A stretch of 64,000 bases of DNA from Anadara kagoshimensis (taxonomy: Eukaryota > Mollusca > Bivalvia > Arcoida > Arcidae): the NCBI GenBank assembly GCA_021292105.1, contig CM037865.1, positions 66,806,630 through 66,870,629 on the forward strand, read 5' to 3'. Shown one piece after another: positions 10,916 to 62,653 of this stretch (position 1 is the stretch's first letter; each line of letters begins with the position of its first letter). The notes under the pieces were generated by a model, which did no database searches, was not told the DNA's origin, and was given only the letters and a program-made list of their open reading frames with translations. The position numbers and the translations under genes are program-made.

Positions 10916-10924
10916 AGTTTTTTA

Positions 10925-11970
10925 TGCTCAGTTGAGCTATTGTCATTTATCATCGTCAGTCGTTTGGCGTACGTCGTTCGTAAACTTTACATTTTAATCA
11001 TCTTCTCCAAAACTGCTTAGGCAAATTTGATAAAACTTGGTGATTATCAGGCCTGGGTAACAGGTTTTCAGAATTGTTTTCGGTGTTTGGTCACGCCTAA
11101 CAAGGTTGACTGCTGTTATTAAAATAGCAAAAAAGGCAAAAAATATTTTTCTCTGAAACCACAACGTGCAAAATTTCGATTGGATACCGTATTTCGATTC
11201 AGGATACCCGGGAACATGAGAATTGGACGAAAAATTGGTTACGTGTTTTGTGTAAAATACGTAATTTGTAAAACGAGACATTTATTGTTATAACTCAACA
11301 AAGATTGAAGATATAATGTATTTAGTATTTACTGTTGATCTTGTCTCGCTATTTTCCTCGATTTGATGTAAAGATCAAAGCTCAAGGTCATGTCCCAGTT
11401 AGTTTTTGAACTTTCATAAAGAATGCTAATTTTTCATGTGATAATGGCATGGTATTTTCAGTTTATTGTAGGTATTGACATGGCGATCATTTTGATACAA
11501 AGAACAAGGTCATGGGTTCAAAAGTCAAGGTCATAGATACACAAGGACACCAAAATGGCTAAATATTTGCGAAACTATTAAATACCCATGTATATACGAA
11601 TAGTGTAGGCATTGACATGGTGATCATTTTTATATTCAAAAGTCAAGGTCACAGATGAACAAGTGAACCAAAATGGTTAAATATCTAAAAGAATATTAAC
11701 TTTTTGTATAGACTGTAAGTTAGAATGTTGTAGGTATTGACATAGTGGTCATATAGATCAAGGTCATGAGTTAAGAGTCAAGGTTACAGATATAGAAAAA
11801 ATACTGAAATGTAAACAATTGTTATAACTTGACTATATAAACAGATTATGACATGAGTTTTCACATTTTTATCTCACCAAACCTTAAGCGCACACGTGTT
11901 ATTGTGTTGGGACGACCATTGATTCATTGTTTATACTAAGGTGAGCGTTGAGGCCCATCAACTTTACTTT
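10925..11970 (+). repeat. Long repeat family A, copy 1 (nested in the inverted-repeat element)
   Basis: Begins near gctcagttgagctattg and continues with ccaaaactgcttaggcaaat, ttgataaaacttggtgatta and later gtcaaggtcacag blocks. It ends at gtgagcgttgaggccca. The same order appears at 22412-23975, and the latter part appears at 48480-49454. It is the most diverged of the three copies. No function is recognised. Confidence 0.8.
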
Positions 11971-11984
11971 TTAATCTAAGAATA

Positions 11985-12190
11985 TACTAGTAGTTGAGTG
12001 GGTAATGGCGTTTTACGCCCCAGTCAAATGTAATGTTGTTTACGTCGTAGTCAAGATCCTTCCACATATATCGAGGCGGTCAATACACAGGTGAATGGAA
12101 CCAGTGTACCCAGAGAAGCCGCCGACTTTCGCTAATTGGGACTCGTTCTAAGGCGATGAGAGGCACTTTAATCCATAAGCCTGTCCTTTA
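11985..12190 (+). repeat. Family C repeat segment, interrupted at 12190
   Basis: Contains gagtgggtaatggcgtttta, the block atcgaggcggtcaat and aagcctgtccttta. The sequence appears to resume after the nested element as gaccactcggccac (13168). A related segment lies inverted at 13545-13740 within the same large element. Confidence 0.55.
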
Positions 12191-13162
12191 AGCATGTCTC
12201 ACACAGAACACGGTTGGGCACACGGTTCCAATACGGTACACTCGGTTATACACGGGTTGACTGGTATGAGTATTTAGCTCCAACCGTGCCTTGGGGATGA
12301 GTTGGTACGATTTAGACTCGAATGTAGCACGAGTATGTACGAATAAAGCACGGATATACTCGGTCAAGTAAGGTTTGTCACGGTTTGAACACGATTTGCA
12401 AACGATTTTCATACGATTGTTGTACGGTTCCAAGTACGGTCTAGTACGGTCTGTTACGGCCTAGTACGATTCAACACTACTTTTACCCGATTAACTGGAC
12501 ATTTACAGGGTTTACATACGGTCCCACCGACTTTTGTTCGAGTTATGCTCGAATAATCACACATTCGTGTATGTTTTGATGTTCTTTGCTTCTTTATATT
12601 CAGTTATATTTGCTAGATATCGTGTTTGGAAAGTGTAATAGCACTTTTTGAGGTCAAAGTGGTTTTGATAAGAGTACAGCTTAATTTTTGGACCAAGGGA
12701 CAAAGTAGTTATTTCTTCAAAGGGAAAAATGAATTATAAGATGTACCTTTGTAAGGGAGCAAATGTTATTTCAAAAATATCTAAGAAAAATAACCACTGC
12801 TCGCTTATAAAGGTACATCTTATTTTTTCTATGGGAACCTTTAATTTTATTTTTGCAAAGTGATAATAATAAAATATTTAATAAGCAATGCATTTATGTA
12901 TATATACGGTCTCGTACGGTCTCACACGGTCTTGTACAATCGCTAATACGATCATACACTGTCTCGTACGATCGCTAATACGATCATACACAGACATGGC
13001 ACCCGTGCCAGTTTTTTAAAAGTTTTAAAAATCATACACGGCTTTTACGGATACACACGAATGGCCCGAGTGTAAGTCGGATAGGGCCACGGTTGGTTCG
13101 GTTGTATGTACGGTTTACACGGGTGGCCAACCGTATAAGCCGTGTGTTCTGTGTGAGACAGG
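12191..13162. mobile_element. Nested 972-bp inverted-repeat element with ACGG motif clusters
   Basis: The left end (agcatgtctcacacagaaca) is inverted at the right end (tgttctgtgtgagacagg). It is flanked by cttta on both sides (12186-12190 and 13163-13167), a likely target duplication. Subterminal regions are crowded with tacggt, acggtct and cgatcatac words (12425-12475 and 12905-12985). A 30-bp-arm hairpin lies inside at 12735-12826, with ataagatgtacctt pairing with aaggtacatcttat. No transposase is present. It is a non-autonomous DNA element inserted into a family C repeat. Confidence 0.7.
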
Positions 13163-13544
13163 CTTTAGACCACTCGGCCACAGATGGCCTCTTTTCACTT
13201 ATGAAACCAAATAGTAAAATACAATCATACAGTTATGAATTCATAATGTCTGACACACCAAGGGCCACGAACAGATGTCAATACTCGTCTGAAATAAATA
13301 ATGCCTACTAATGAATCATTGAACATTTATTTAAGGCACATGAAGATATGTGTGTCCTCACGTTAAACGTAGAAACAGGGCGATAAGATTACATAAACAA
13401 ATACGAATCGCTTGTTGCTTATGATCTGAAAAAAAAGAGAAAAGGGGTGGTGATAATGGTGAGATTTTAGCTGTAAGCCATCACAGTCAAAATACGCCAC
13501 ATAACAAGAAGATAATGAAAGCTGAATCTTTGGTATGTCACAAG

Positions 13545-13740
13545 AATGGCCTAATGCAGACAGTGACAGGAAGAGTGATAAACGTACCCGGAGCCATTGT
13601 CAGTTCGCTGCCAAAGGTGGCGGATTCTCTGAGTACACTGATTTCATTCACCATCTATGAATTCACCGCCTCGATATATGTGAATGAATCTTCATAGGTG
13701 CGTGAAACACCATTACCCAACTCAACTACGTTCTTAGAAG
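13545..13740 (-). repeat. Family C repeat segment, inverted relative to 11985-12190
   Basis: Its reverse complement contains gttgagttgggtaatgg, then acatatatcgaggcggt and cagtgtactcagagaa, in the same order as the + strand copy at about 11990-12125. Together the two copies extend the fold-back symmetry of the large element inward. Confidence 0.55.
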
Positions 13741-13744
13741 AATA

Positions 13745-14594
13745 AGGTAAAAAATATGATCTACATTCGAACCTTTTCAAAATGGTATTTCACACGTGTT
13801 TAATTTATTTGCGCAATTGGTATAACTATCTTTAAGTCGGTTTAGTCTTTCGTAAGTGTTTACTTTTGGAAGTAATGTATTGCTATATCAGCATGTATGA
13901 CAGTATGTTTTTTTTGCTTTTTATTGGTTCAAGTTACGAACTGTGTATGGTTCTGCTCTCTTCCAAAAATTGAATCCTATCCTGCAATGCTCTCTGAATC
14001 ACTTCTGAAACAACTTGTGAAAATATAATCGAGAAAAACATCCGATCTAAAGTTATAATGAAGTTTGAGTTCTGTCAATTGCGAATCATATTAAACGTAA
14101 AGCGTAACATGTCTTCACGGAAAGCGTAACACAGCTGGTCGGAAAGCGTAACATTTATACTACTCCGCTTAAACGAAACATAAAATTTCACTTAAAAGCC
14201 GAGTAAAGCTTCTGTTTTCACGAGTTTATAAAAGTAAAGACATTTCTTAAGGATTTTGAGTAGAAACATCATTTGAAACCAAGTCCGTTTTATTAAAATC
14301 AGCTGCTAAACAAAAGCACCTGCCAAAAATGGAAATGTGAAAGGTACGTGAAAAATATGAATATTTCTTGCAAGTTTTTATATGAGGCAGTTAAATACCA
14401 TCAAATATTATGTGACCAACTTTTTGCTTTCTGTTAAAGTTTCGTTTTTATGAAGTTATATTAAAAATAGTCATCTGTTCTCTTTAACGTAAAGCGTAAC
14501 GACCAAAAAATGTATCATTTTACTCCGACGTAAATTAAAACCGATGGAATACTCCGACGTAAATGAAATACGGTGTATCACGATTACCCCCGTG
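13745..14594 (-). repeat. Right terminal inverted repeat arm
   Basis: Mirror of the left arm, with the same gttacgcttt motifs on the - strand, ending cacgattacccccgtg followed by the tttat duplication. It lacks MITE H and so preserves the pre-insertion sequence of the arm. Confidence 0.85.
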
Positions 14595-14693
14595 TTTATT
14601 TTGTAAGTTTAATACATAAATATGCCAAAAGCTTTTTATAAGCTTGAGCATAAGGGCTCTTAGTCACATTCATTAATATAGGACAGATACCTG

Positions 14694-16615
14694 TGCCTGT
14701 CCAAACTCCATAAAAGTAGTACCTGTCCAAATTCTGTAGAACTAGTGTCCACCCTAACTCTATAAACCAATGTCACACCGAACCAAAGTCTATAAAACCA
14801 TTGTCCACCCAAACTCCATAAAACCATTGTCCACCCAAACTCCATAAAACCATTGTCCAGCCAAACTCCATAAAACCATTGTCCACCCAAACTCCATAAA
14901 ACCATTGTCCACCCAAACTCCATTAACTAGTATCCACCCTAACTCTATAAACCAATGTCACACCAAACCAAAGTCTATAAAACCATTGTCCACCCAAACT
15001 CCATAAAACCATTGTCCAGCCAAACTCCATAAAACCATTGTCCACCTAAACTTCATAAAACCATTGTCTACCCAAACTCCATAAAACCATTGTCCAGCCA
15101 AACTCCATAAAACCATTGTCCACCCAAACTCCATAAAACCATTGTCCACCCAAACTCCATTAACTAGTATCCACCCTAACTCTATAAACCAATGTCACAC
15201 CAAACCAAAGTCTATAAAACCATTGTCCACCCAAACTCCATAAAACCATTGTCCAGCCAAACTCCATAAAACCATTGTCCACCCAAACTCCATAAAACCA
15301 TTGTCCAGCCAAACTCCATAAAACCATTGTCCACCCAAACTCCATAAAACCATTGTCCACCCAAACTCCATAAAACCATTGTCCAGCCAAACTCCATAAA
15401 ACCATTGTCCACCCAAACTCCATAAAACCATTGTCCACCCAAACTCCATAAAACCATTGTCCACCCAAACTCCATAAAACCATTGTCCACCCAAACTCCA
15501 TAAAACCATTGTCCACCCAAACTCCATTAACTAGTATCCACCCTAACTCTATAAACCAATGTCACACCAAACCAAAGTCTATAAAACCATTGTCCACCCA
15601 AACTCCATAAAACCATTGTCCAGCCAAACTCCATAAAACCATTGTCCACCCAAACTCCATAAAACCATTGTCCAGCCAAACTCCATAAAACCATTGTCCA
15701 CCCAAACTCCATAAAACCATTGTCCACCCAAACTCCATAAAACCATTGTCCACCCAAACTCCATTAACTAGTATCCACCCTAACTCTATAAACCAATGTC
15801 ACACCAAACCAAAGTCTATAAAACCATTGTCCACCCAAACTCCATAAAACCATTGTCCAGCCAAACTCCATAAAACCATTGTCCACCCAAACTCCATAAA
15901 ACCATTGTCCAGCCAAACTCCATAAAACCATTGTCCACCTAAACTCCATAAAACCATTGTCCACCCAAACTCCATAAAACCATTGTCCACCCAAACTCCA
16001 TAAAACCATTGTCCACCCAAACTCCATAAAACCATTGTCCACCCAAACTCCATTAACTAGTATCCACCCTAACTCTATAAACCAATGTCACACCAAACCA
16101 AAGTCTATAAAACCATTGTCCAGCCAAACTCCATAAAACCATTGTCCACCCAAACTCCATTAACTAGTATCCACCCAAACCCTGTAGAACCAATGTCTCA
16201 CCAAACCAAAGTCCATAAAACCATTGTCCACCCAAACTTCATAAAACCATTGTCCAGCCAAACTCAATAAAACCATTGTCCACCTAAACTTCATAAAACC
16301 ATTGTCTGCCCAATCTTCATAAAACCATTGTCCAACCAAAATCCGTAGAAATGGTATCCACCCAAACTCAATAGAACCAGTGCCCACCTTAATTCCATAA
16401 AACCAGTGTCCACCAAAAGTCCATAGAACCAGTGTCCACCCAAACTCCATAAAACCAGCTTTCACCTAAAGTCCATAAAACCAGTGTCCACCCAAATCCA
16501 TAAAACCAGTATCCACCTGAAGTCTATAAAACCAGTGTCCACACAAACTCTATAGAACCAGTGCCCGACCAAAATCCATAGTACCAGTGTCTACCCAAAC
16601 TCCATAGAACTTGCT
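14694..16615 (-). repeat. 26-bp minisatellite with higher-order structure, ~70 units
   Basis: The unit is ccataaaaccattgtccacc followed by caaact, with a common cagcc variant. A two-unit anchor carrying taactagtatccacc then tgtcacaccaaa recurs at 14924, 15161, 15528, 15765, 16054 and 16161. The last third (after about 16180) is increasingly degenerate. Several 60-118-codon frames on the - strand run through it only because the unit has no stop codon in any - frame. They are not genes. Confidence 0.95.
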
Positions 16616-22411: not shown

Positions 22412-23975
22412 TTAGCTCACCTGAGCCAAAGGCTCAGATGAGCTATTGCAATCTATCACCGTCTGTCGTGCGTCGTGTTTAAACTTTACTTTTTAATCTT
22501 CTCTTCCAAAACTACTGGGCCAAATTTGATAAAACTTGGTGATTATCATGCCTTGGTAACAGCCTTTCAAAATTGTGTTTGGGGTTTGGCCACGCCCAAC
22601 AAGATGGCCACCATTACTAAAAATAGCAAAAAGACAAAAAAAATCTTCTTCTCTGAAACCAAAAGGTGCAGGCAAATTTTGATTGGATATTTAGATTCAG
22701 CATACTGGGAACATTAAAATTTTGTTTTTCATGAAAATTGAATGAAAAATAGGTTACATGTATTTTGCGTAAAATTATGTAATTTTGAAAATGAGACATT
22801 TATTGTTATAACTCAATAACGGCTGAAGATAATTGTATGGAGTTTTCACTGTTGATCTTGTCTTGCCATTTTCTTCCAAAAGATGTCAAGGTCAAAGGTC
22901 AAAGTCATGTCCCTGTTTTTGACCTTTGATAAAAAATGCTATTTTTTAAACATTTTAGATGATAATGGCATGGAATTTTCAGTTAATTGTAGGTATTGAC
23001 ATGACAATCATTTTGATACATAGATCAAGGTCATGAGGTCAAGGATGCACAACTATTACCGTTATAGTTGATTATCTGCCAAACTATTAACTTTTTGTAT
23101 AGGCATACATATTAGAATATTGTAGGTAATGGCACAATGATAATTTTGATATATAGTTAAAGGTTATGGGTTCAAAGGTCAAGGTCACAGATGCAAAAGA
23201 ATACCGAAATGGTTAATTATCTAGAAAACTAATAACTTTTTGTATAAACTTGTATACTAGAATATTGTAGGAATTGATTTAATGATCACTTTGAAATATA
23301 GATTAAGGTCATGGGTTCAAAGGTCAAGGTCACAGATGCAAATCAATACCAAAATGGTTAATTATCTCAAAAACTATTAACTTTTTGTATAGATATGTAT
23401 ATTAGAATATTGTAGGTTTTGATTTAACGATCATTTTGATTTATAGATTAATGCCATGGGTTCAAAGGTCAAGGTCACAGATGCGAAAGAATACCGAAAT
23501 GGTTAATTATCTCGAAAACTATAAACTTTTTGTATAAACATGTATACTAGAATATTGTAGGTTTTGATTTCACAATCATTTTATATATATATTAATGTCA
23601 TGCATTCAAAGGTCAAGGTCACAGATGCGAAAGAATACTGAAATGGTTAATTATCTCAAAAACTATAAAAGTTTTGTATAGACATGTATATTCAAATATT
23701 GTAGGTAATGGCCTAGATGAAGGTCATAGTTTTATACTTTTGTTTTTACTTGTTTAGCTCTTATAAATAATGTATTGTAGCTAGACTATATATATATTAT
23801 ATGTAGCATTCTCGGGACAAGGTATGATTAATTTGCAAAAATCCTTGCATTTAATTCTGCCTTACTGCTGAAAATAAGGAGTTCTCTTTAATAAATGTTA
23901 TTGACAATTGAATCTCTGCATGAGATATGTACTTAGCCTCAGGTGAGTGTTAAGGCCCATGAGCCTCTTGTTTTA
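22412..23975 (+). repeat. Long repeat family A, copy 2, with 145-bp internal period
   Basis: Starts with a near-perfect hairpin (agctcacctgagcc, 3-base loop, ggctcagatgagct) and ends at aggtgagtgttaaggccca followed by tgagcctcttg. From about 23060 it carries tandem units: ggttaattatct falls at 23211, 23356, 23501 and about 23645, a 145-bp period. Each unit includes gttcaaaggtcaaggtcaca and aactttttgtat. No coding frame spans it. The mechanism of spread is unknown. Confidence 0.85.
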
Positions 23976-26398: not shown

Positions 26399-28231
26399 GT
26401 AAAATACTGTGTAACATAAAATAGCAAGCATTGAGTTGAATTATATAGTGTAACATCAATGACATGGAAGTATAATGAACATGGATTGTGGTGATTGACT
26501 CTGAATTTTCCAAGGTTTGTTTTAAAAAGATGACAAATTAGGAAACACCATTCTGAAAAAATTAGTTTTCAGCATTTAGGTTTGACATGTTCCTTGGTGA
26601 TTCAGTATAGACAGGTTTTGTCTTTATTCAAGGTTTAAGTTTGGTCTGTTTCACTGTTGTGTATTAACAAGGTTTCCATTCTTTCTGTAAAGACTGAACA
26701 TGTATCAATTTAACCACTACAAGTAATTGATACTCTATATCAATAAAACATATCTTCTTCTTTATGTGGTTTATTAAATTCATGTATATGAAGCTACATA
26801 GAAATAATGCTTTATCATACTGATTAAAAAACCTGTTAAGTTAGATCACGATATATACATCATGTACTGTTTTATTTTTTTTTTACAAAACTCAAAACAA
26901 TATTATATAACTATATATATACACGTAGATTAACACAGCTATATATGTAACATAACACTACAAAATACTGATCAAGTTTTATTTCTGTGCATTGACAGTA
27001 TTTATTAGTTTGGTCTTGTACTTTATAAGAAGCAATTGGTGTCATTTTCTGATTTATTGTAAGCTTTAGTAGTTCATATATTGAGACTGATTGTGTAGAA
27101 CACCAAGTCAATCAAGGGATTTATCATATATGTGTTTTATATGCTGGTATGAATGTCCCATTGCTGTAGAATCTCCATTTTATGAGCAAAGTCTGATTAA
27201 AAAGCTGAAAAGTATCTTGATTTTATGTTCAAATGGTATTATAGACGGTTTGCATCATGTTTGATTCATTTTGCTTTTCCATTACCCTAGCTTAGTATTG
27301 AATTTATGTAACAATGGTAAAAATATTCAGTATGGTCATTTTTATCTTCAATAAATGTAGTCTTTCATATGTCTTGTGTTAAAATGGCTCTTGTCAGCCC
27401 GTTTCCTGTTTTGTAATCATGTAGAGCATATAAATTGATCCATCATCATAGATTTGCAAAAAAAAAAAAAGAAAATGTTCTCACCTTTTATGAAAGCTAG
27501 GTGTTTTAATGTAAACTTGTCACAATTTCTATATACTGCAATACCTGGATGTCAAAAAATTACTCAATATCATTGTTTTGTTCTTTTAAGAGAGCAAAAG
27601 AGAAAAAAAAAAATAGAAGCCTAGTTGTTCATCATAGGTTATTTATGTAGTACTATAAACGTTTAAATATTCATTACCATGATTTCCTTCATCATGTAAT
27701 GCAGTGTTATAGACCTTAGCTATCAGACTTAGCTAATGTCATCATTTTGTCAGCTTTTAAGAGAGAAAAAAGATTTGTTGTTAAAACCAGTCTCGACTAT
27801 CAAGTGACTTGTTTTTACATAACCATTACAGTGTTATAAAAACAACATCATGCTCCTCATAAAAGTCTATTAGATTTGGGTATCAGGAAAAACTCAATAT
27901 TCCCATTATCATAATCACTGTTTGTACGAGGGTAAAAAATCAGTTTTATGTACATCGAGGGCATTATAATGAGGTTTTACTGTATTTAATATGGAGTAGC
28001 TTGTTACCAATAATTGTCATCAAAAAGCATGTTTTGTAATTATTAGAATAATTTAATAATGTTATCTTCCTGTTGTAAGAGATAAATAGAGTAAATACTG
28101 TAAATAAAGACCTCACACACAGGTAAAATTTGAAACAAAAGGACCTTGAAACACTGGTTTTAGTAGTTAAATTTAGAATTTTTGTAAACAAGATGTCTAT
28201 AGATAATGGTTCTGTTGAATTAAAATATAAA

Positions 28232-29345
28232 ACAAAAGGACCTTGAAACACTGTTCTTAATAGACATGTTAAATACTTGAATCACTGTTCTTAATAGACA
28301 TGTTAAATACTTGAAACACTGTTCTTAATAGACAGGTTAAAATACTTGAAACACTGTTCTTAATAGACAGGTTAAAATACTTGAAACACTGTTCTTAATA
28401 GACAGGTTAAAATACTTGAAACACTGTTCTTAATAGACATGTTAAATACTTGAAACACTGTTCTTAATAGACATGTTAAATACTTGAATCACTGTTCTTA
28501 ATAGACATGTTAAATACTTGAATCACTGTTCTTAATAGACATGTTAAAATACTTGAACCACTGTTCTTAATAGACATGTTAAAATACTTGAACCACTGTT
28601 CTTAATAGACAGGTTAAAATACTTGAAACACTGTTCTTAATATACAGGTTAAAATACTTGAATCACTGTTCTTAATAAACATGTTAAAATACTTAAAACA
28701 CTTCCTTAATAGACAGGTTAAAATACTTGAAACACTGTTCTTAATAGACAGGTAAAAATACTTGAATCACTGTTCTTAATGAACATGTTAAAATACTTGG
28801 AACACTGTTCTTAATAGGCAGGTTAAAATACTTGGAACACTGTTCTTAATATACAGGTCAAAATACTTTGAACACTGTTCCTAATAGACAGGTTAAAATA
28901 CTTGGAACACTGTTCTTAATATACAGGTCAAAATACTTGGAACACTGTTCTTAATAGACAGGTTAAAATACTTGAATCACTGTTCTTAATGGAAAGGTTA
29001 AAATACTTGAAACACTGTTCTTAATATACAGGTTAAAATACTTGAATCACTGTTCTTAATAAACATGTTAAAATACTTGGAACACTGTTCTTAATAGGCA
29101 GGTTAAAATACTTGGAACACTGTTCTTAATATACAGGTCAAAATACTTTGAACACTGTTTTTAATAGACAGGTTAAAATACTTGGAACACTGTTCTTAAT
29201 GGAAAGGTTAAAATACTTGAGACAATGTTCTTAATGGAAAGGTAAAAATACTTGAAACACTGTTCTTAACAGACAGGTCAAAATACTTTGAACACTGTTC
29301 TTAATAAAATACTTGAAACATTGTTCTTAATAGACGGGTTACATT
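28232..29345 (+). repeat. 35-bp minisatellite, ~31 units
   Basis: The unit is approximately ttaatagacaggttaaaata followed by cttgaaacactgttc, with 34-bp (atgttaaatac) and other variants. The array is framed by longer words (aaaggaccttgaaacactg at 28239; aagggactttgaaacactgg at 29353), probably the pre-array sequence. It is made of variant blocks rather than being homogeneous. Confidence 0.95.
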
Positions 29346-30764
29346 ATTAAACAAAGGGACTTTGAAACACTGGTATTAATAGATGAAACATGTGTTCTGT
29401 TTATTGAAGTGCAGTTTGCTATAGCAGGTTTTGCCGTATATATAAGTAATTTTGCCTTTAGATTAAAATGGTTATTTTGAAGGTAAAGTTTATGATTTGT
29501 TATTATTGCTTTGTCATTCTATAGCACTTGTATTGATTAAGATGTGAGTATCAGAGGTATATATTACTACTTGTTGACATTTAACTGACGAAAATGTCGG
29601 AAGGAAAATTAGGAGTGTTCATAGTATTTCATACTCGTAGTGATATTTCACATTTCAGAGACAAAAAAGCTGAGTCTGGCCTTTCAATCAAAGCGGCTTT
29701 ATAAGCTATATTGTATTTATCATCATGTTTTTGTCCTAAGCCTGTTATGCAATCCATACAGATTTTGGTATCACAATTACTTGGCATCAGTATTTGGATG
29801 GAATTTTAGCAGTCTAGCTAATTTATCAAGAGAATTATATTATAGGCTTTGTCATTTCATTAATCATGACTACAGTCTCATATTTTGCAAGCTTTTATCA
29901 ATCTCATTTCAGAGTTAAGAGGATTCATACATTCCATAAAATTGTATTATCAAAAAAAAACCAAGTCATCAAATCAATGCTGTTATGATACATAACAAAG
30001 CATTTCTTTTTATTGGCATTTGCTTCAACCAGTTTTTTTTCATCATTTTATTGTTAAATAGAGTATTTTGTCCTTTAAATTTTTAGATAAAATTATTCAT
30101 ATTCCGTCTAAGTTGTGTATTTAAGTACCGGTAGTTTGGGGCTCATGGTGAGAAAACTGAATTAATGGGCCAGTTCGTTTTTGTCTTTTTGTTTCATATT
30201 CTATATGTATCTAGGAAATTATTAATCTGAAAGTCTTCTCTGTCTTCTCTAGAATTCTAAAATTCATATACATGTGACAACATATCACCTGTATTACTCA
30301 TTATTTATGTACACATTTATAACAGTTACTGCATCCCTGACTTCAGAAACAAACCCAGTTTTATATCAAGTAGCTTGTTCTATATTGCATATTTTGTACA
30401 CCTTGAACATCTACTGATATATAATTATCTAGCAGGTGAAGATCAAGATCTTCAATAAAAGTCTAATTGGATAGTATGACTTAAATGTTATGGCTTTAGA
30501 GTTCATTATTATTATTTTGATATTTATTAGACCAGACTGCCATTAAGTTTATTAATATACCATATTCATCAAAGATTTTTTTATTGATTTTCAAAAGATT
30601 GGTGTCTAATGACAGTAAGCATGAATTAACCTGTCCAAAATTTTCCTATTTTTGGTTCTATGTAATGATAAATTATCAACTCTAGAATGTTTTCAGGATG
30701 AGTTTATTAGTCAATCAGTCTGAGTAATCATAGATTCTGCATAGACTTATAAAATGTTTTGTCC

Positions 30765-44165: not shown

Positions 44166-44496
44166 GTTTGTATTATATATCTGACTAGTTATTGAATCAA
44201 TTTAGATATAATGTGGAATCAGCAATGAGATATGACCGATGTTTACCAGCATATTACCATTGTAATGTTATATCCTCTGATTTTAAATCACATCATTGCA
44301 GATTGAAAATTAGATTTTTTTTCTAATCCCATTTTCAAATGATTTTGTTTTAGATTCAGTCTATATACTTCAATAATGATGCAATAATACATGTAGCTTA
44401 GCTTTTAGTTACAAATGTTATAAAAAGTTAAAAAAAGGATTACTTTGTCTTTTTCTTAAGAAATAAAAGAGATTAAAAGATGAATTTTATTAATTC

Positions 44497-45541
44497 GTTC
44501 TTGGTATCCCCATAATAGAGAAATGTTCATTGGTTCTTGGCATCCCCATAATAGAGAAATGTTCATTGGTTCTTGGCATCCCCATAATAGAGAAATGTTC
44601 ATTGGTTCTTGGCATCCCCATAATAGAGAAATGTTCATTGGTTCTTGGCATCCCCATAATAGAGAAATGTTCATTGGTTCTTGTCATCCCCATAATAGAG
44701 AAATGTTCATTGGTTCTTGTCATCCCCATAATAGAGAAATGTTCATTGGTTCTTGGCATCCCCATAATAGAGAAATGTCAATTGGTTCTTGTCATCCCCA
44801 TAATAGAGAAATGTTCATTGGTTCTTGGCATCCCCATAATAGAGAAATGTCAATTGGTTCTTGGCATCCCCATAATAGAGAAATGTTCATTGGTTCTTGT
44901 CATCCCTATAATAGAGAAATGTTCATTGGTTCTTGGCATCCCCATAATAGAGAAATGTTCATTGGTTCTTGGTATCCCCATAATAGAGAAATGTTCATTG
45001 GTTCTTGGCATCCCCATAATAGAGAAATGTTCATTGGTTCTTGTCATCCCCATAATAGAGAAATGTTCATTGGTTCTTGGCATCCCCATAATAGAGAAAT
45101 GTTCATTGGTTCTTGTCATCCCCATAATAGAGAAATGTTCATTGGTTCTTGCCATCCCCATAATAGAGAAATGTTCATTGGTTCTTGGCATTCCCATAAT
45201 AGAGAAATGTTCATTGGTTCTTGGCATCCCCATAATAGAGAAATGTTCATTGGTTCTTGCCATCCCCATAATAGAGAAATGTTCATTGGTTCTTGGCATT
45301 CCCATAATAGAGAAATGTTCATTGGTTCTTGGCATCCCCATAATAGAGAAATGTTCATTGGTTCTTGGCATTCCCATAATAGAGAAATGTTCATTGGTTC
45401 TTGGCATCCCCATAATAGAGAAATGTTCATTGGTTCTTGGCATCCCCATAATAGAGAAATGTTCATTGGTTCTTGGTATCCCCATAATAGAGAAATGTTC
45501 ATTGGTTCTTGGCATCCCCATAATAGAGAAATGTTCATTGG
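44497..45541 (+). repeat. 36-bp minisatellite, ~29 units
   Basis: The unit is ttcattggttcttggcatcc followed by ccataatagagaaatg, repeated with very few substitutions (ggcatc/gtcatc/gccatc, ttcatt/tcaatt). Because 36 is a multiple of three and the unit lacks stops in several frames, long artefactual frames arise: 351 and 341 codons on the + strand, 223 on the - strand, each a 12-residue repeat. They lie entirely within a PLD intron, have no unique flanking coding sequence and are not called as genes. Confidence 0.95.
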
Positions 45542-48479
45542 ATTATTCTTCTTAAACATCTTTAATGAGGTTTTGTAATAAGCATTTTGAGTTATTGTCA
45601 TTGTTCATGAAGATTTTAATGCTAGATCTCTGATTGTATTACAGTTACAAGACTTAGTATTATAAAAGTCGAAAATTTATTAAATACTTTTTTCTCAGAA
45701 AGTCAAACAAGATAGGAATTACTAGTCCTGTGGCATCTCAGTTTAGAAATAAATGTATGATTGTTCTTGTTAATTTTGTTACAAGCATTTGGGGTTATTA
45801 TCATGATTGTTTATAATAGGGGTGTAACAAATAATAGTATACAAATATCAAATTTAACAAAAGTGCTTGACGACAAACAATGCTAATGTCTATGACAATG
45901 TTTCATTCAAATATACAAGAAACATTGATTTTGCAATATCAGTACCATATTGTGAAGTGAAATCCAATCTTATTTGGACATTTTACTGTATCAGAACATA
46001 ATATTTAAAACTTGTATCATGGTAATCAATCAGAAGCCCATTCGACCGCTTTTACCGATAAATTGGTATATCATTACACCTTTAGTAAATGAGGTAGATC
46101 AATGCCCATTGCTTCATAATTAAAGCATCTTTCAATTTCCGAAGGATGATTCATTTGGTTAATACATATGTTTCTCTTTACTGTGTGCACTGTTCATGAA
46201 CTAGTTGTTAATCCCAACTTTGCATATAAGAGTGAGATGTTTTGTTAGGGGTAATTTGCTTCTCAAAGGTCTGTGGTTCTTTTACCTTACAAGTTTTTGT
46301 CAATTTGTGAAAGTGAAGGAATCTAACAGATATAAGTCACTCCATTTATGATTGGATAAGAACACCTTGTATTGATCATGACACAACATTAGTTAGAACA
46401 CTTACTGTTTGCTGTCTGCATGAAATGTTTGTTTATTTATAATTTTTAACAAGATAAGATTTCATATTAGAATTTAAATGTTAAATGTGTTGAACTGTTC
46501 ACCAGACATTTATCTAAACCTTTATCTAAATTTTTATCTAAAATTTAATCTATTAACTTCTGTCCAACTGTTTGTGAATTCACTAGAGATCTGATATTCC
46601 TGGTAACATCTGGTTAGATATGTGGGTTTATCAATTTTCACTCAGAAATAATACAGCAGTTTTATGTCCTTTAAAGCTATTTAAATCCTTAAAAAATTTA
46701 TTAATCATACTGTTTTCTTCAACGTCTGTCACATGCAGTTATGTTATATTAATTGATTAGTTTAGTATTGGCCTTGTTATAGGTCCAAAGACGGCTACAG
46801 TGGCCAGAGACATACCAGAAGGCCAATACAACTGATTTAGGACCTAAAATGAGGCTAATACAAAACTAATTAATAATGAATTCATTAATTAACTATATGC
46901 TTTTCAAACTAAATTGATATAAAATACAATACATTAATGTGAAATATTGGGTTGTATATCACAGACATCCATTTGATCAAGTTGACCTTCCAAGGCTGGG
47001 GTTGGGATTTACACCATAAAGTCTGCAAATCTACAGGTTTAAAAAATCCATGAAATATCTCATGGACATTAAACTTATTGTATATTTGTTGCTTCCATTT
47101 AATCATTGTAATATTGCTCAGAGAGTTTCCCGTCTCTAATGTTATCCACAAGAACATCCATCATTTGTTCTAAATTATAAATCTGAGATCTTGGCCAGTA
47201 ATCGAGCTTGTTCAGAAGACATTGTTACCAAGGTGAAGGTCAGCCACACAACATGTTGTTTTAGTTGTTGTGAAACCTTCCCTATTTCTTGAAGCATTGA
47301 CTGGATAAAATGTGAAACAGATATGTGGGCTATTTTTTCAATAAACTTGTATGTTCATAAACAGCATTGTGATATCTTATTAAATAAAGCAAAACAACCA
47401 ACCATGGTCATGTTTTTTTATGGTTTCTAAATTGGCAATGGTTTTTCTGTATTGGCTAGTTTGCAATCTGATATCATATGGGAAGAATGGCCATATTGTG
47501 ACTAATAAGTATATATAGTTAATTAATAATCTCTGATATAAGCATATTGATCAAACTATAAAGGTATAGTACATCAATTTTTACTGCAAAAATGAAATAA
47601 TTCTGAAAAAAGATTTTCATCCTTTTAAGCTACTTTATTCATGAAAAGCTTTCTCTGTTTATATAAAGATTTATATTTTAATCTTTCCATGCCTGTCACT
47701 TAATTAGTAGTATTGATCAATTCATAAAAAATATCATTTAGTTTTGAATTAATTCAATCAATAAACTCATTTTAAGCTAAATAAATCATTAAACCCCTGT
47801 TTAAGATTCATATAAAGATATTTTTAATGCTTCTGTCGTAAACGCCATTAACATTGATCATATTTGAAAGAAGTACTTCTGTATGCATATTATTAAAGGG
47901 GTAGTGTGGCTGTAAGCAAGATGTTGTTTGCAGCTGTATCAGTACTTAGCTATTGCACATGTTTCATTAGTTGTGATGTGATGCTAGAGCTGTTACTGCA
48001 ATGTATATATACTGGTGATTAACATGTTGCATAATGAATTACAGGGTCAAGGGTCATACAGAAATGTCAACTACTATGGATTGATTCTAAATTATGACAG
48101 TATGGTCTTAAGACCTGAAATACCAAAAGGTTTCTGGTTTAAACCTGGCATAAATCTAGTTTATTTTGTTTCCATTACCATTTGTTATACACAACTGGAA
48201 CCTCTCTTCAAGTCTTGACATGTATCTGTACACCTAACAATGGAATAAATAGAACCTAAACAGTACAGAAACCATTCATTTAATGCCACATTACAATCTT
48301 TGAAAATAGATTATTGCATGTTGCTGCTGGTTAAAACATCATTAAAATTAGATCTACCGGTACTACTATAAATCAGTATGTCATTATCATTATTTTAATG
48401 CTGGATTCAACATGCTTCAGGAATTATTGGAAAAAAAGTGAATGTGTTTCAACTATTGTTACGAATGACAACTGTTTAG

Positions 48480-49454
48480 GTTTGACATGTTTGGGCCATT
48501 ATATGAAAGATATTAAAAATGAGGTCATAATGGATTAAATGTTTAATTATCTCGAAAACTATAAACTTTTTGTATAGGCATGTATATTAGAATGTTGTAG
48601 GTATCGATACAACGATCATTTTGATGTATAGAAAAAGGTCATGGGTTCAAAGGCCAAGGTCACAGATGCGAAACAATACCGAAATGGTTAATTATCTCGA
48701 AAACTATAAACATTTTGTATAGGCATGTATATTAGAATGTTGTAGGTATTGATACAACGATCATTTTGATGTAAAGAAAAAGGTCTTGGGTTCAAAGGTC
48801 AAGGTCACAGATGGGAAACAATACCGATATGGTTAATTATCTCGAAAACTATAAACTTTTTGTATAGGCATATATATTAGAATGTTGTAGGTATCGATAC
48901 AACGATCATTTTGATGTATAGAAAAAGGTCATGGGTTAAAAGGTCAAGGTCACAGATGTGAAACAATACTGAAATGGTTAATTATCTCGAAAACTATAAA
49001 CTTTTTGTATAGGCATGTATATTAGAATGTTGTAGGTATCGATACAACGATCATTTTGATGTATAGAAAAAGGACATGGGTTCAAAGGTCAAGGTCACAG
49101 ATGCGAAACAATACCGAAATGGTTGATTATTTCGAAAACTATAAACTTTTTGTATAGGCTTGTATATTAGAATGTTGTAGGTATTGATACAACGATCATT
49201 TTGATGTAAAGAAAAAGGTCATGGGTTCAAAGGTCAAGGTCACAGATGCAAAACAATACCAAAAGGGTTAATTATCTCGAAAACTATAAACTTTTTGTAT
49301 AGGCATGTATATTAGAATGTTGTAGGTATTGATACAATAGTTATCATGATGTAAAGAAAAAAGTCATTGGGGTTTAGTTTTTATGTGTTCTTTAAATCTA
49401 TTAGCTAGCCATTAGTTATCAGGTAAGCGTATCAGGCCCATGGGCCTCTTGTTG
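48480..49454 (+). repeat. Long repeat family A, copy 3, with 145-bp array
   Basis: The word (c/t)tcgaaaactataaac falls at 48551, 48696, 48841, 48986, 49131 and 49276, an exact 145-bp period. The copies are very alike. It ends with caggtaagcgtatcaggccca and tgggcctcttg, the same end as the other family A copies. The 5' hairpin and unique leader seen at 22412 are missing, so the copy is 5'-truncated. Confidence 0.9.
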
Positions 49455-53200: not shown

Positions 53201-53340
53201 ATTATGCGACATCCTGACCATGGTGCAGGTGGAGTTTTACTTTGGGCTCACCATGAAAAAATTGTTGCTATAGACCAAAAAATAGCATTTCTTGGTGGAT
53301 TTGATCTTTGTTATGGGAGATGGGATGATGATAAACACAG
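53201..53340 (+). CDS. PLD1: PLD exon 11: HKD catalytic motif 1
   Basis: Acceptor tttatttcag, donor gtatgt at 53341. 46 codons plus 2 bases: [20 protein letters not shown], then IVAIDQ and [17 protein letters not shown]. The HxKxxxxD motif is at 53252-53275 (His 53252, Lys 53258, Asp 53273). In the family the two HKD motifs form one active site, with His as the nucleophile that forms the phosphatidyl-enzyme. GG-DL-YGRWD follows as expected. All catalytic residues of this half are intact. Confidence 0.99.
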
Positions 53341-53348
53341 GTATGTTA

Positions 53349-54900
53349 AGCCCCATTTATACGGCGAGAATTGCATACCTAAGTATTTTTTACTCATATG
53401 TAAATTTACTCACATGCAAATTGTGTCGTATGAACAACTTTGCATATACGCAAATTTTACTCATGTAAGTAAATTTGCACTTAGTAGGGACCAAGTGCAA
53501 ATTTGCTATAGTATGTGAGTATTTTATACTTAGGTATGCAAATTTTGCTAGAGTGTCGTATGAACGCACAATAATATTTACTTACATAATTTTAAACACA
53601 TGGACTTATGCCAGGTTATTTATCTATGGGTTAATGTTTGGTGCAGGAGTGAATATGGGTGTTTGTGATCTGCCTTGTACCAAAAAAAATGGTTTAATAG
53701 TGTTGTTCACTGATATACAATGTCACAGATTAACATTACATACATCCCATTGTATTGACATCAAGCTAACCAACAGGTGCCAATTGTAAGGGAAACCCAC
53801 TCACCACTTATGGTGTTACAATCGGGGATAGTGGTTAAAGAAGCCAACCACTATTAACCACGACGACCCTCATTGATTTGTAATAATTATCCAATAAAGA
53901 TTAAAAGTTGTAATTGAAATAGATTTATTTGACAAAAGCACAAAAACTAGTGACAAGCTGTCACCAAAATTTGATGTTTTACTAGTTTTCAAAGAGAAAG
54001 TGCTTGAGCAACAAAGGCCAAGCACAGAATGTAAAGAAAATTTACTTTTACAAATTTGACAATGAATTGTCGATGAAAGGAGATGTCATGTTGTTACTTA
54101 GTGTTTTGGGAGAACAAATATTATAAGCATCATCATCTTCAACATCACTGAAATAATGTTCACCATCAAGTTAAACAAAAACATTTGACCAATCGATGAA
54201 GCTAAACTAATTTTAGTTAGGGGTCCAGCTCAGTTAAAAAAGAAGTTTTAATGTAATAAATAGCTAAAATGTGTAAACATTTTGGGGCCCAGACTGGGTT
54301 TTAGGAGACATGGGCTAATCTAAATATCTGATATTTGTTATGAAGAACAACACAAGCTCCTTTTACAGAACAAGCAAACACGACATGGACATCAATTCTT
54401 TTTTGCAATCATCACAATGGTCATTTCAAGCAACCCAAAGAAATCCGAGATCCAGTGTCATTCTACCCTAACTAGACGGTATATAAATGTGCTCTGCTCT
54501 TGTGTAAGATTTTGTTTGTTTGTATACTTTTTAGGCTTGAGAAAACAAGTCTTTAAAGGATATGTCATATAACATTTTTTAATGTATTTTATGATTATTC
54601 AATAAATTTAAATTCAAAAACTGGAATATGACAGATATGCTGGATCACCAAGTAGAACTGCTCCTTTGTCATAATAATACCCCAGTATCAAATCAGTGCT
54701 TAAATAGTAAGGAGACGTTCTTATCTGATAATCAAGTCTTCAGAATGAAAATTTTCCAAAATTGGTTGAAAACTTCAAATTTACTTATGGTACATAAATT
54801 ACGTATGAATGCAAAGCAAAATATGCTTTTGCTTACATGAGTAAATTTACATATGAGTAAAAATACTTAGGTATGCAATTCTCGCCGTATAAATGGGACT
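53349..54900. mobile_element. 1.55-kb Harbinger-like non-autonomous element at a splice donor
   Basis: The ends are agccccatttatacggcgag and its inverse at the right (ctcgccgtataaatgggact). The inverted match runs about 65 bases through gcatacctaagta and ctcatatgtaaatttactca. TTA lies on both sides (53346-53348, 54901-54903), fitting the TWA duplications of PIF/Harbinger elements. No transposase or Myb-like frame is seen. The interior has further inverted words (gtaaatttgcac) and a segment shared with 17829-17937. The left end is eight bases into the intron. Confidence 0.85.
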
Positions 54901-56339: not shown

Positions 56340-56547
56340 TGAACAAGTTTACACCAAAGTGAGGTGATGATTATTTAGGTATGTAGGTCAAAGGTGAAGG
56401 TCACTAGGTCAAGTCTTAGAATTTTTGTGTTGTATGTTGTGCCTGCTTCATAACTGCTATTTTTATAAATAGATATATGTCTGTGTTACTGATTGTCTTA
56501 TAGATATGGTAAAATATAAAAAAAAAACTTTTTAAAGTATTTTCTTT

Positions 56548-56791
56548 ATCCAAAAACACAGAAAACTCAACACTTCACAGACTGCTATGGTATTTATTAT
56601 GGTATTATCATTCAACATGTTTCGCCATGCTAGAATGGCGTCATCAGGAATAATAGCAGTCTGTGAAGTGTTGAGTTTTCTGTGTTTTTGGATATAGTTT
56701 AATACTTCAGAACTCTATTGAATCCATTAGGATCCACCAACAGACTCCTCCGCCACCCGCATCTAAGGGTGTTGATTCTCTTTTTTATTAG
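56548..56791 (-). mobile_element. 244-bp hammerhead-bearing retroelement with 14-bp target duplication
   Basis: The unit is bounded by the direct repeat aaagtattttcttt at 56534-56547 and 56792-56805. Inside, 56548-56588 and 56653-56693 are a perfect 41/41-base inverted repeat, separated by 64 bases that fold as a hammerhead on the - strand. A 98-base GC-richer segment (cctccgccacccgcatctaa) completes it. It has no protein-coding frame. A duplication of this length points to target-primed reverse transcription. Known relatives with minimal hammerheads are Penelope-like elements and animal retrozymes. Assignment to one of these is inference. Confidence 0.75.
56606..56655 (-). ncRNA. Hammerhead ribozyme (type I, minimal helix III)
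   Basis: Read on the - strand: helix I 5' strand uauuauuc, then CUGAUGA, an unpaired C, helix II gccau/auggc with a 6-base loop, then GAAA. A minimal helix III (ac-au-gu) follows, then U as cleavage base (GUU), then helix I 3' strand gaaugaua. Helix I has 8 pairs including one U-G. Predicted cleavage falls between the bases paired to 56614 and 56613. Every conserved core position (C3-A9, G12-A14, H17) is present. The odd point is the extra C between A9 and helix II. Confidence 0.72.
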
Positions 56792-57223
56792 AAAGTATTT
56801 TCTTTGTAATTATAACAGACATTTTGTGTGTATTTGTCAATGCTCATTGACAGCTCTTGTCATAAAAAAGATATAGTGCAATCTTGTACAACAGTAAAAG
56901 TTAAAAAAAAAATTAAAATATTCTTTTATTACTTTATTTGTACTAAATAAAACCATATTGTGATAGAGAAGTAAAATTCTCAAATAGAATTGGAAATGAT
57001 TGAATTGATTTAAAACTATTGAAGTTTTTGTAATTAGTTGTTCAAAACATTGCCTTAAATCTAGCAAGCTTAAAATTATGAATTTTGAAGTTTTTATCAA
57101 ACAAGCCAGCAAATTTAAGTAATGAATTTCAAGTGTTTTACCATTTTGATCACCTGTGTCTTATAACCAGTTTTTTTTAGACATAGACCCAAGGTAAATC
57201 TTTTATTTATATGTATTTTACAG

Positions 57224-60527: not shown

Positions 60528-60586
60528 GTAAGATTAAACATTAATATTTGTACTTTCTTTGATTGTTTATTTTATTCTGATAAATA

Positions 60587-61922
60587 CAGTCATTGGTCAT
60601 AAGTATTGGCAAAAACGACATTATCGTCATTACGGGTTGAGCGTATGTCAATTTTGTTTTAGCGATAACTTTGTAAGTATATAAGAGTTATCTCTCTTAT
60701 TTCACACATTGATAGTTATGACGTACTGGTGCTTCGGGCAACTTGATTTTATGTCATCTGTTGCCTGTTTCCGGTGTATATCCAATGTAAACAACATGCG
60801 TCAAAAAGGCTCTGAGCTGTCAGATGTTGAGAAAAATACGATTGTATCTCTGTACGAGATTGGAGTTATGAAATCTTAAGATTGTCAGGATGTGCAGACG
60901 ACCTGGACGGACAGTATATAATTTTATTCGGCGCTATGAAGAAACTTAATCCACAGAAAATAAACCACGAAGTGGATGCCCCCCTTCCATGAGTGTGCAG
61001 GACGAATGGCGATTTTTAAGAATGGTAAAGATGAATCGTTGGGGCAATTTGACTGAAGTTACTAATATGTTTAATGACTTGTGGACTGTACAAATTTCTG
61101 AGAGTACTGCAAAGAGGCGTCTGTATAAGGAAGGCTATAGGAGACGGGTGGTTAAGAAGACAATCAGAATCAGAGAGGTCAACAAACGGAAATGTGTATT
61201 GTGGTGTAGACATGAAAGATAGAAGACTGTAGATGGATACAGGAAAACAGTGATATTTAGTGATGAATGTAAGGTGGAAATTGGAGGTGATCACAAAGTT
61301 TGCGTTTGGAGAAAGGTCGGAAAAGAGTGAGACCCCGCATGCATAAACCCCCCGTTTAAAGCCAAGTTCAGTTTAATGATTTGGGGATGTATTACTTTTC
61401 AAGGTGTTGGAACTATTTCTTTGGTAAATGGTAACATAAATGGCCAAAAGTACATAGAAATCGTTGATAATAATTTATGGGCTGTTATAGCACGCCATTT
61501 CCCCGATAATAGGTACATATACCAGGATGACAATGCCCCTGCCCATCGAGCCAGGGTTGTGAAACAGTTTATGGAGGAAAACCAGATAAACTGCATGGAA
61601 TGGCCTGCCCAGAGTCCTGATATCAATATTATTGAAAATGTCTGGAAAAAACTCAAACATCTCCTGCAATTGCAAGTTCATAACATAACTAGTGTGGCTC
61701 TGCTTGAAACTGCAATCAGGAATTCATGGGCAAATATTCACCTTGATTTCATACAAGATCTTTATCAGACCATTCCAAGAAGATTAACTGCAGTAATCAG
61801 GGCCAAAGGATGCATAGATTTTTACTTGTATTTCATTTTAAAACGCTGATTGAAAAACTGAGATGAAAAATGAAAATAGTGTCGGACATTTTGATTTTGC
61901 CAATACTTTTGACCAATGACTG
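60587..61922 (+). mobile_element. Tc1-family transposon (1336 bp), same strand as PLD
   Basis: The terminal inverted repeats cagtcattggtcataagt (left) and acttttgaccaatgactg (right) match inverted over about 30 bases through tattggcaaaa with one mismatch. TA lies at both ends (60585-60586, 61923-61924). The two ends are nearly identical, so the insertion is fairly recent, although the transposase within is broken. Confidence 0.95.
60796..61849 (+). pseudogene. Tc1 transposase pseudogene (DD34E)
   Basis: A start at 60796 (MRQKGSELSDVEKNTIVSLY) soon hits a stop. The DNA-binding part continues in other frames (about 60989-61220: STAKRRLYKEGYRRR). A further stop at about 61220 and another at about 61328 precede the catalytic part. 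Catalytic acidic residues are readable: the first Asp in FSDECKVEIG (near 61260), the second in YQDDNAPAHRA (near 61530) and Glu in SPDINIIENVWKKLK. There are 34 residues between the last two, the DD34E spacing of Tc1. Several stops and frameshifts make it non-functional. Confidence 0.92.
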
Positions 61923-62150
61923 TATATGGTTAAACATGTGTTACGTTTGAAAAATTTGAAACCAGGTCAATAGTGATTTGTGTAGTTTGTATTGCTTAGT
62001 GCATGTCTGAATGGATTTTGCATGGTTTATTTTTTATCCCTGAAACCTATATGTCTCTGTAATGTGAGAAATATATTACAGTACTTCAGATGGTTCTTTA
62101 TTATTATTACTTTTTATGTTTTGAATATAAGATTTATACTTATGTTTTAG

Positions 62151-62269
62151 ATTTTATTGACCGATATACTACTCCCAGAATGCCTTGGCATGATATTGGT
62201 GCTGTGGTTTATGGGAAGGCAGCTAGAGATGCAGCAAGACATTTCATTGGTCGATGGAATTTTACAAAA
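62151..62269 (+). CDS. PLD1: PLD exon 16: conserved core (RMPWHD block)
   Basis: Acceptor atgttttag, donor gtaagt at 62270. It completes an Asp codon and adds 39 codons: [36 protein letters not shown], ending FTK. This DR-x-(T/S)-PRMPWHD...G-AARD-ARHFI-RWN block is the signature of eukaryotic HKD PLDs between the two catalytic motifs. Confidence 0.99.
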
Positions 62270-62653
62270 GTAAGTTTTCTGTATACTTTATGTTGGTCTT
62301 ATGTCACATCCCAAGCACGAGTGAAGATTTGTTGAATAATGTTAAAGAAATAGAGTGAAGAAATGGTGCTTTATGTCTTTCTCTAACATAGCTAATTAAT
62401 GCAGGAATGGTGGAGAAAACTGGAGCACCTGCAGAAAACCACCAACTTTTGGTGAGTTAATTGGTCAATTTCCTCACACTGGCATATCTGCCCCAGTGGG
62501 ATTCATTTCTAGGTAATAAATGTTAAGCGGTGCTGTGATCCATTAGTCAACACTTTAGAAGTTACCTTTTTCAATGTATTAAATTAAAGGTATAAGCATG
62601 GCTATTTAAACACTTAGGGGTTCTTTATATTTTCTTTGTTCATTTCATTTCAG
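62270..62653 (+). other. Intron 16
   Basis: 0.4 kb. It has a short family C-like fragment (62405-62475: gtggagaaaactggagcacc, ccaccaacttttggtgagtt). Nothing else. Confidence 0.7.

Follow-up and report, generated by a model that had tools for sequence, protein, structure and literature searches.

We found that a hammerhead motif on the minus strand of the window (the whole 64-kb stretch of Anadara DNA analysed here) very probably derives from a Penelope-like element (PLE): it would be the PLE hammerhead carried by a recent, 5′-truncated insertion of 244 bp, which lies antisense in an intron of a PLD gene and would have formed by the mechanism proposed below. Judged against open-licence papers, the finding is an additional case of the known PLE-type hammerhead, and the window copy by itself is ordinary. 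The copies in this one genome, however, show unusually clearly how PLEs copy themselves into DNA: more than 100 of them bear the motif, a very young subfamily included, their insertion junctions can be read as records, and whether cut RNA ever serves as template becomes a question that can be answered by counting.

A hammerhead motif on the minus strand

Read directly from 56655 to 56606 on the minus strand, the sequence is UAUUAUUC-CUGAUGA-C-GCCAU-UCUAGC-AUGGC-GAAA-CAUG-U-U|GAAUGAUA, in which the bar marks the predicted cut. Its parts are as follows, with the basis of each in brackets.

56614-56655, minus strand: hammerhead up to the cleavage point (sequence, descriptor, subfamily-B covariance model at 41 bits)
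56655-56648, minus strand: 5′ strand of helix I (sequence)
56647-56641, minus strand: CUGAUGA box (sequence)
56640, minus strand: extra C (sequence)
56639-56624, minus strand: helix II (sequence)
56623-56620, minus strand: GAAA box (sequence)
56616-56614, minus strand: GUU triplet (sequence)
56589-56613, minus strand: 3′ side of the predicted cut, comprising the 3′ strand of helix I (56613-56606) and the rest of a 25-nt spacer (sequence, homologous copies)

A first-pass annotation made from the letters alone had described CUGAUGA and GAAA boxes at the right spacing in 56606-56655, a helix I of eight pairs, a helix II of five pairs, an extra C ahead of helix II and a GUU triplet with a predicted cut at 56614/56613. 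All of these are present on the minus strand, one of the helix I pairs being G·U. By contrast, its two-pair helix III around a 2-base loop had to be re-read, because a hairpin loop of two bases is not feasible; the stem is better described as a single A-U pair on which the self-complementary CAUG forms the cap, and this near-absent stem is all that the window copy has of helix III. The segment AACAUGUU (ACAUGU) is self-complementary as a whole and, by analogy, would suit a dimer form. By eye, helix I could extend to 11 pairs with the full upstream sequence; because many copies start 0-8 nt before CUGAUGA, however, the element's own 5′ end may contribute only about four of the eight pairs.

The claim that such a core is rare by chance was borne out, in that none of 200 dinucleotide shuffles gave a helix I of at least 8 pairs with a helix II of at least 5. 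The boxed pattern was absent from 100 shuffles of the sequence, and the hammerhead descriptor matched once in the 64-kb window; with looser limits (helix I at least 5, helix II at least 3) a match appeared in 5 of 200 dinucleotide shuffles. The Rfam hammerhead covariance search that the annotation had called for scored nothing: no hammerhead family reached its gathering threshold over the whole window, and none gave a match up to E 10 over 1 kb or 61 nt around the motif. Matches to MIR4208 and other microRNA-type Rfam families all fell under the gathering scores, reflect the long hairpin described below and were rejected. On sequence grounds, the window motif is a real PLE-type hammerhead motif.

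The motif lies in a two-armed insertion in a PLD intron

The motif occupies the loop between the arms of a perfect 41-bp inverted repeat, which belongs to an insertion of 244 bp (56548-56791). A 14-bp target duplication, AAAGTATTTTCTTT, flanks the insertion with 14 of 14 positions identical and occurs nowhere else in the window; the expectation for a 14-mer repeat in shuffles was 0.01. The insertion and its surroundings are laid out as follows.

53204-53374, plus strand: PLD exon upstream of the insertion (Pfam PLDc, E 1.4e-8; PLD1 6u8z residues 119-165, E 5.2e-19)
56534-56547, no strand: left target site duplication, 14 bp (14-mer found twice in the window)
56548-56655, minus strand: first arm, with ribozyme, spacer and short tail T, outer end T-type (BLAST to a longer copy, reference 163 to ~274)
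56548-56588, minus strand: tail T, the short reverse-transcription start end, in the first inverted-repeat arm (inverted-repeat arms)
56653-56791, plus strand: second arm, with tail T (56653-56693) and extension E (56694-56791), ending ...TTTTTTATTAG (BLAST, reference 230-371)
56792-56805, no strand: right target site duplication, 14 bp (14-mer found twice in the window)
62150-62335, plus strand: PLD exon downstream of the insertion (PLD1 6u8z residues 195-236, E 2e-19)

The inverted-repeat arms (56544-56588 and 56653-56697) are 98% complementary and perfect over 41 bp. BLAST against a longer copy shows the long hairpin to be the overlap of two arms, each of which extends where the other does not. 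Read from these alignments, the hairpin is where two separate cDNAs overlap, and copying from the other arm alone could account for neither. A candidate piece of PLE open reading frame within the 244 bp was dropped, as the translated frames soon stop.

The earlier placement of the motif in a PLD intron holds, with PLD1-like exons on both sides. As these exons are on the plus strand, the ribozyme runs antisense to the gene, and its complement is what PLD pre-mRNA would contain. A second copy of the insertion, which shares the target duplication and has similar flanks, lies ~4.3 Mb away in inverse orientation (L002, G000:C9:71178535-71178695); judging from the sequence of this copy, the PLD-intron stretch seems to have been duplicated.

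Motif-bearing copies belong to a Penelope-like element

We searched the assembly from which the window comes (1.115 Gb, 36 contigs). The insertion as query gave 73 matching pieces genome-wide (window and both palindrome arms counted, only the best candidates scored), the E segment gave 32 matches (all 32 scored candidates), and a pattern derived from the motif gave 111 matches, against none for the reversed pattern. This pattern took from the window motif its fixed boxes, one extra base, two helix-II pairs and U16.1, and left free the identity of the extra base, pair 10.2-11.2, the loop, H17 and helix I; copies without the extra base are invisible to it. In the ribozyme sense, the element runs from an upstream pseudo-LTR through the ribozyme, the 25-nt spacer and T (41-45 nt) to E (~98 nt). 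Two subfamilies, A and B, were distinguished: B, the majority among the pattern matches listed and found with the window-derived pattern, has a helix II of GGCAGC/GCUGCC or GGCAGC/GCUGUC, as against GCCAU/AUGGC. Patterns for PLE hammerheads matched nothing in the viral contigs or genome contigs searched, and BLAST against phages gave weak, short matches only. At one locus (L087, G000:C4:38414164-38414735), two ribozyme cores form a direct tandem at a spacing of ~40 nt, which would fit a backward jump of the reverse transcriptase on its template.

Longer copies carry protein-coding sequence. The L007/L031 copy runs upstream of the ribozyme into a GIY-YIG endonuclease frame (PF01541, 27.8 bits against a cut-off of 22.6, E 3.3e-6) and includes a C2H2-finger frame. 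The latter, a 245-aa open reading frame with C2H2 fingers (L031:1568-2305, minus strand), lies between the endonuclease and the pseudo-LTR, and its end (CLDELPP..RE.Y) was found again in subfamily B (L073). L073 also holds a reverse transcriptase fragment (QIQGTSMGTKCAPN...YIDD) that matches RVT_1 with E 8.1e-5 and 22.9 bits, under the Pfam cut-off of 29.6, and has 66 relatives at E ≤ 1e-5 among 67 candidates. Because GIY-YIG, reverse transcriptase, pseudo-LTR and hammerhead occur together in this set, we assign the motif-bearing copies on sequence to Penelope-like elements, GIY-YIG and reverse transcriptase having been seen in different subfamilies. The class proposed by the annotation, a minimal hammerhead resembling type I, of the kind found in Penelope-like elements, is thus upheld by the copies, some covariation, the NUH rule and the element proteins. 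Its link to animal retrozymes is not: the window copy is solitary, and array units in subfamily B measure ~1.9-2.0 kb, against the ~170-400 bp expected. As no tandem repeats of ~170-400 bp bearing the ribozyme were found, a retrozyme was rejected.

Conservation supports the hammerhead in part

The base before the cut (H17) is C in 33, T in 15, A in 10 and G in none of 58 distinct contexts in the fetched copies. The NUH rule therefore holds at the predicted cleavage site in 58 of 58 contexts, which are kin copies standing for few independent events and were found by a search that required intact boxes and one extra base. Across 16 variants, which were picked by hand from the fetched copies and in which two helix-II pairs were fixed by the pattern, 89.8% of 128 cells in helices I and II are paired, compared with at most 34.5% in controls slid by 1-3 columns. 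Both sides have changed in three of the eight stem pairs, in about three events, one of them in a single copy, and the outermost helix-I pair is missing in 10 of the 16 variants. Two of five covariation measures were ordinary against shuffles, both-side changes being as high in 59 of 500 and pair types in 271 of 500.

Covariation among genomic copies, which the annotation had put forward as a check on the helices, was thus found in part: three pairs are compensated and most cells are paired, whereas two measures do not rise above shuffles and 6 of the 17 family-A ribozyme sites listed, which were found by similarity, have a damaged core or helix (the plus copy in L005, L006, L007, L013, L016 and L017). 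We would read the family-A damage as decay of single copies. A covariance model built from 12 subfamily-B sequences gave 41.0 bits (E 7.3e-10) for the window motif and 11.5 bits for the next match; the former score is partly by construction, as the window-derived pattern chose the model's sequences.

Two-armed insertions mostly have one T-type and one E-type outer end

In family A, 13 of 19 independent insertions are two-armed (independence and arm class assigned by hand), and all of these but L007, which has T and a shorter E end, combine a T-type with an E-type outer end (12 of 13). Six family-A insertions look single-armed (L003, L004, L012, L014, L022 and L037). In family B, all 13 two-armed copies have one T-type and one E-type end, a count in which L100 is ambiguous, L076 and L077 were cut by the fetch and L093 and L109 were dropped as duplicates. 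Target duplications (score at least 9) flank 17 of 22 two-armed copies, compared with 7 of 462 mismatched flank pairs, in a test that left out L007, L078, L096, L100 and L116; the flanks of the L007/L031 copy hold no clear target duplication. Subfamily B is very young, 63 of its 65 tail matches being identical to the pattern, without mismatch. Grouped by hand, these 65 matches fall at 29 sites, where tails point outward on both sides at 23, in one orientation at 6 and inward at none. This two-armed architecture is not new and matches published PLE structure, because inverted pseudo-LTRs with a tail are described in PMC3846280 and priming from both strands in PMC11167929.

We propose that the PLE reverse transcriptase would be primed from both nicked target strands and would start at two internal positions on the element RNA, at the T end for one strand and at the E end for the other. 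The two short cDNAs would then be joined tail-outward, probably through microhomology, which would account for the target duplication and for an inverted repeat whose loop holds the ribozyme. In the window, one cDNA would extend as far as the point, 0-8 nt upstream of CUGAUGA, at which the element RNA probably starts; the ribozyme would then come first in the RNA. In a living element, it would act on read-through or tandem transcripts and cleave them, probably as an ACAUGU dimer or aided by protein.

Two other origins of the inverted repeat were weighed. The second arm might instead arise by self-priming, through snap-back of the cDNA or on an antisense template as in Adineta vaga PLEs, a route that is proposed for those elements in PMC3846280 and would suit the palindromic copies with a shared inner end (L015, L020 and L036). 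We consider this unlikely, given that in the window, L006, L009, L010 and L011 each arm holds sequence absent from the other, and that in vitro work on the protein of a lizard PLE showed cutting and extension of both target strands (PMC11167929). Far less probable is a MITE or foldback DNA transposon with inverted repeats that happens to hold the motif, of which the 41-bp perfect inverted repeat and the target duplication would be typical marks; arm extent and inner end vary between copies, the outer ends are unlike (one T-type, one E-type) with no fixed terminal inverted repeats shared, duplications range from 12 to ~20 bp, and longer copies hold GIY-YIG or reverse transcriptase. We therefore retain priming from both target strands as the preferred reading.

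Inner ends near the probable RNA 5′ end and, in a few arms, near the predicted cut

Among the 58 ribozyme contexts, 26 extend at least 24 nt upstream and 29 stop 0-8 nt 5′ of CUGAUGA; the upstream extent of L079, L100 and L112 was scored as 10-19 nt, apparently from indels. The 29 are not all independent: they include the duplicate pairs L001/L002, L092/L093 and L108/L109, two arms each from L074 and L075, the internal tandem of L087, and L085/L086, which may share upstream sequence and had no reference. Since context copies were chosen for an intact motif, this set samples ends further upstream and not those downstream. The sequence at the upstream stop is TCAGTCC in B and TTATTCC in A, both of which we take to fit the initiator motif. 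On this basis, transcription would start some four bases ahead of CUGAUGA, which would make the ribozyme the 5′ end of the RNA.

A few arms without a ribozyme end near the predicted cut. In family A, the inner end lies within 2 nt of it in L007, L015, L020 and L026/L029, with those of L007, L020 and L029 at +2 rather than 0; in family B, L101 is the sole arm to end exactly at the cut. The palindromes L015 and L020 could be snap-backs. In a hand tally of 28 family-A inner ends, 7 fall in a 10-nt window at the 5′ side of the ribozyme and 4 in a 5-nt window at the cut (binomial 5e-4, a guide only, as the uniform null was picked after the data had been seen). The tally counts palindromes once, merges copies with like flanks (L002, L013, L017, L023-L025, L034 and L035), enters L026/L029 once at the cut although further ends lie at +5 and ~+34, and leaves out the decayed L038-L042 and L064-L072; the ends of L005 and L007 lie beyond the reference.

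On C1-C18, a hand comparison found the motif still next to 55 of the 58 subfamily-B tails, and uncut RNA is therefore the main template. Of the remaining three tails, that of L118 misses the pattern solely because its core is mutated, and C6:53217045 (in L094) begins one base within the core. The idea that most templates are ribozyme-cleaved was rejected, given these 55 tails and the single family-B arm that ends at the site. Cleaved templates are nevertheless possible among the PLE insertions, to judge from the inner ends. A fuller scheme, in which priming at the T site and the E site is coordinated on opposite strands, the ribozyme forms the RNA 5′ end and some templates, a minority, are 3′ cleavage products, is one that we put forward tentatively, considering it rather less probable than its negation. 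Were it true, this genome would be a fossil record of in vivo hammerhead cutting during PLE transposition.

The window copy is predicted to misfold

In silico, the hammerhead fold costs 12.3 kcal/mol in its 161-nt hairpin context (-71.1 against -83.4 kcal/mol for the best fold). For the bare 50-mer, the hammerhead without helix III is predicted at -8.9 and the best fold at -14.8 kcal/mol, a gap of 5.9. This best fold is the hairpin CGCCAU/AUGGCG with the extra base paired to G12, and the extra pyrimidine can pair with G12 in 16 of 16 aligned variants (C-G in 11, U·G in 5), which is an inactive register. On these predictions, the window copy is probably an inactive relic.

A working ribozyme that is transcribed at this locus and cuts antisense PLD transcripts is accordingly a very improbable alternative. 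In its favour, the core letters form a complete set and helix I has eight pairs; against this, the strand is antisense to PLD, the fold predicted in context is not a hammerhead, and the duplicate with like flanks, L002, has T at the extra base. We give appreciably more weight to the possibility, still an unlikely one, that what is conserved is a hairpin, in DNA or RNA, for protein binding, priming or initiation, the likeness to a hammerhead being incidental or the trace of a lost function. The CGCCAU/AUGGCG hairpin with its C or U paired to G12 is the lowest-energy fold of the 50-mer, and the extra base, at a position that the pattern left free, is C in 44, T in 14 and A or G in none of the 58 contexts, and so can pair with G12. 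However, helix I is specific to the hammerhead fold and has two compensated pairs (one in a single copy), and H17 is G in none of the 58 contexts; the invariance of the boxes across copies is no evidence against a hairpin, as the search pattern demanded them. We thus continue to favour a PLE hammerhead, inactive in the window copy.

Comparison with known hammerheads and PLEs

PLE hammerheads are reportedly of the minimal type I (Cervera and de la Pena 2014) and are said to be active as dimers (Lunse et al. 2017). An extra core nucleotide is also reported for a viroid hammerhead (de la Pena and Flores 2001), an A that would sit after A9 and ahead of position 10.1; the extra core nucleotide is common to both cases, whereas it is A in the viroid and C or U here, and the carriers are unrelated. 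According to a review, PLE hammerheads act as dimers, have a near-absent helix III and serve a role that is called unknown there. The Anadara copies share with PLE hammerheads, as described there, the CUGAUGA and GAAA boxes, the near-absent helix III, the position in the pseudo-LTR, the GIY-YIG element and the many dispersed copies, and may differ from them in the one extra pyrimidine between A9 and the helix-II G-C pair, where the search pattern required an extra base. Animal non-LTR retrozymes have type I hammerheads in tandem repeats of ~300 bp, according to PMC7229834; the type I hammerhead is shared, whereas that of Anadara lies in a PLE with GIY-YIG and tails.

Inverted pseudo-LTRs, a target duplication, a tail on one copy and palindromic junctions are common to the Anadara PLE and the A. 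vaga PLEs of PMC3846280, whereas the Anadara ends are T (41-45 nt) or E (~98 nt more), several Anadara insertions consist of arms only, and duplications are mostly 12-15 bp, compared with 8-10 bp in the A. vaga cases seen. For Poseidon PAc of Anolis carolinensis, two internal reverse transcription start sites and the cutting and extension of both target strands have been found in vitro, where ribozyme cleavage was dispensable for insertion (PMC11167929). Two internal starts would be common to PAc and the Anadara PLE. In PAc, the hammerhead lies beside the 5′ end of the open reading frame and no RNA ends were found at the ribozyme site (PMC11167929), whereas a few Anadara cDNA ends lie near or at it. 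PLE hammerheads have also been reported to act with the element protein (PMC11167929, and the review).

Other features of the window

Several further repeats were seen in the window. A Tc1/mariner-like transposon at 60584-61925 has 49-nt inverted ends (82%) and a DDE_3 transposase open reading frame at 61331-61849. A long inverted repeat at 9966-14594, whose arms fall into several blocks of 59-333 nt at 81-99% and are separated by ~3 kb, resembles a young element that has long inverted repeats at its termini. Minisatellite arrays of 26-, 35- and 36-bp units occupy 14598-16500, 28184-29439 and 44346-45689, and in the 36-bp array several frames are open over hundreds of codons. A 145-bp tandem repeat family forms two arrays 25 kb apart (23057-23646 and 48532-49411) and has relatives at 11432-11758.
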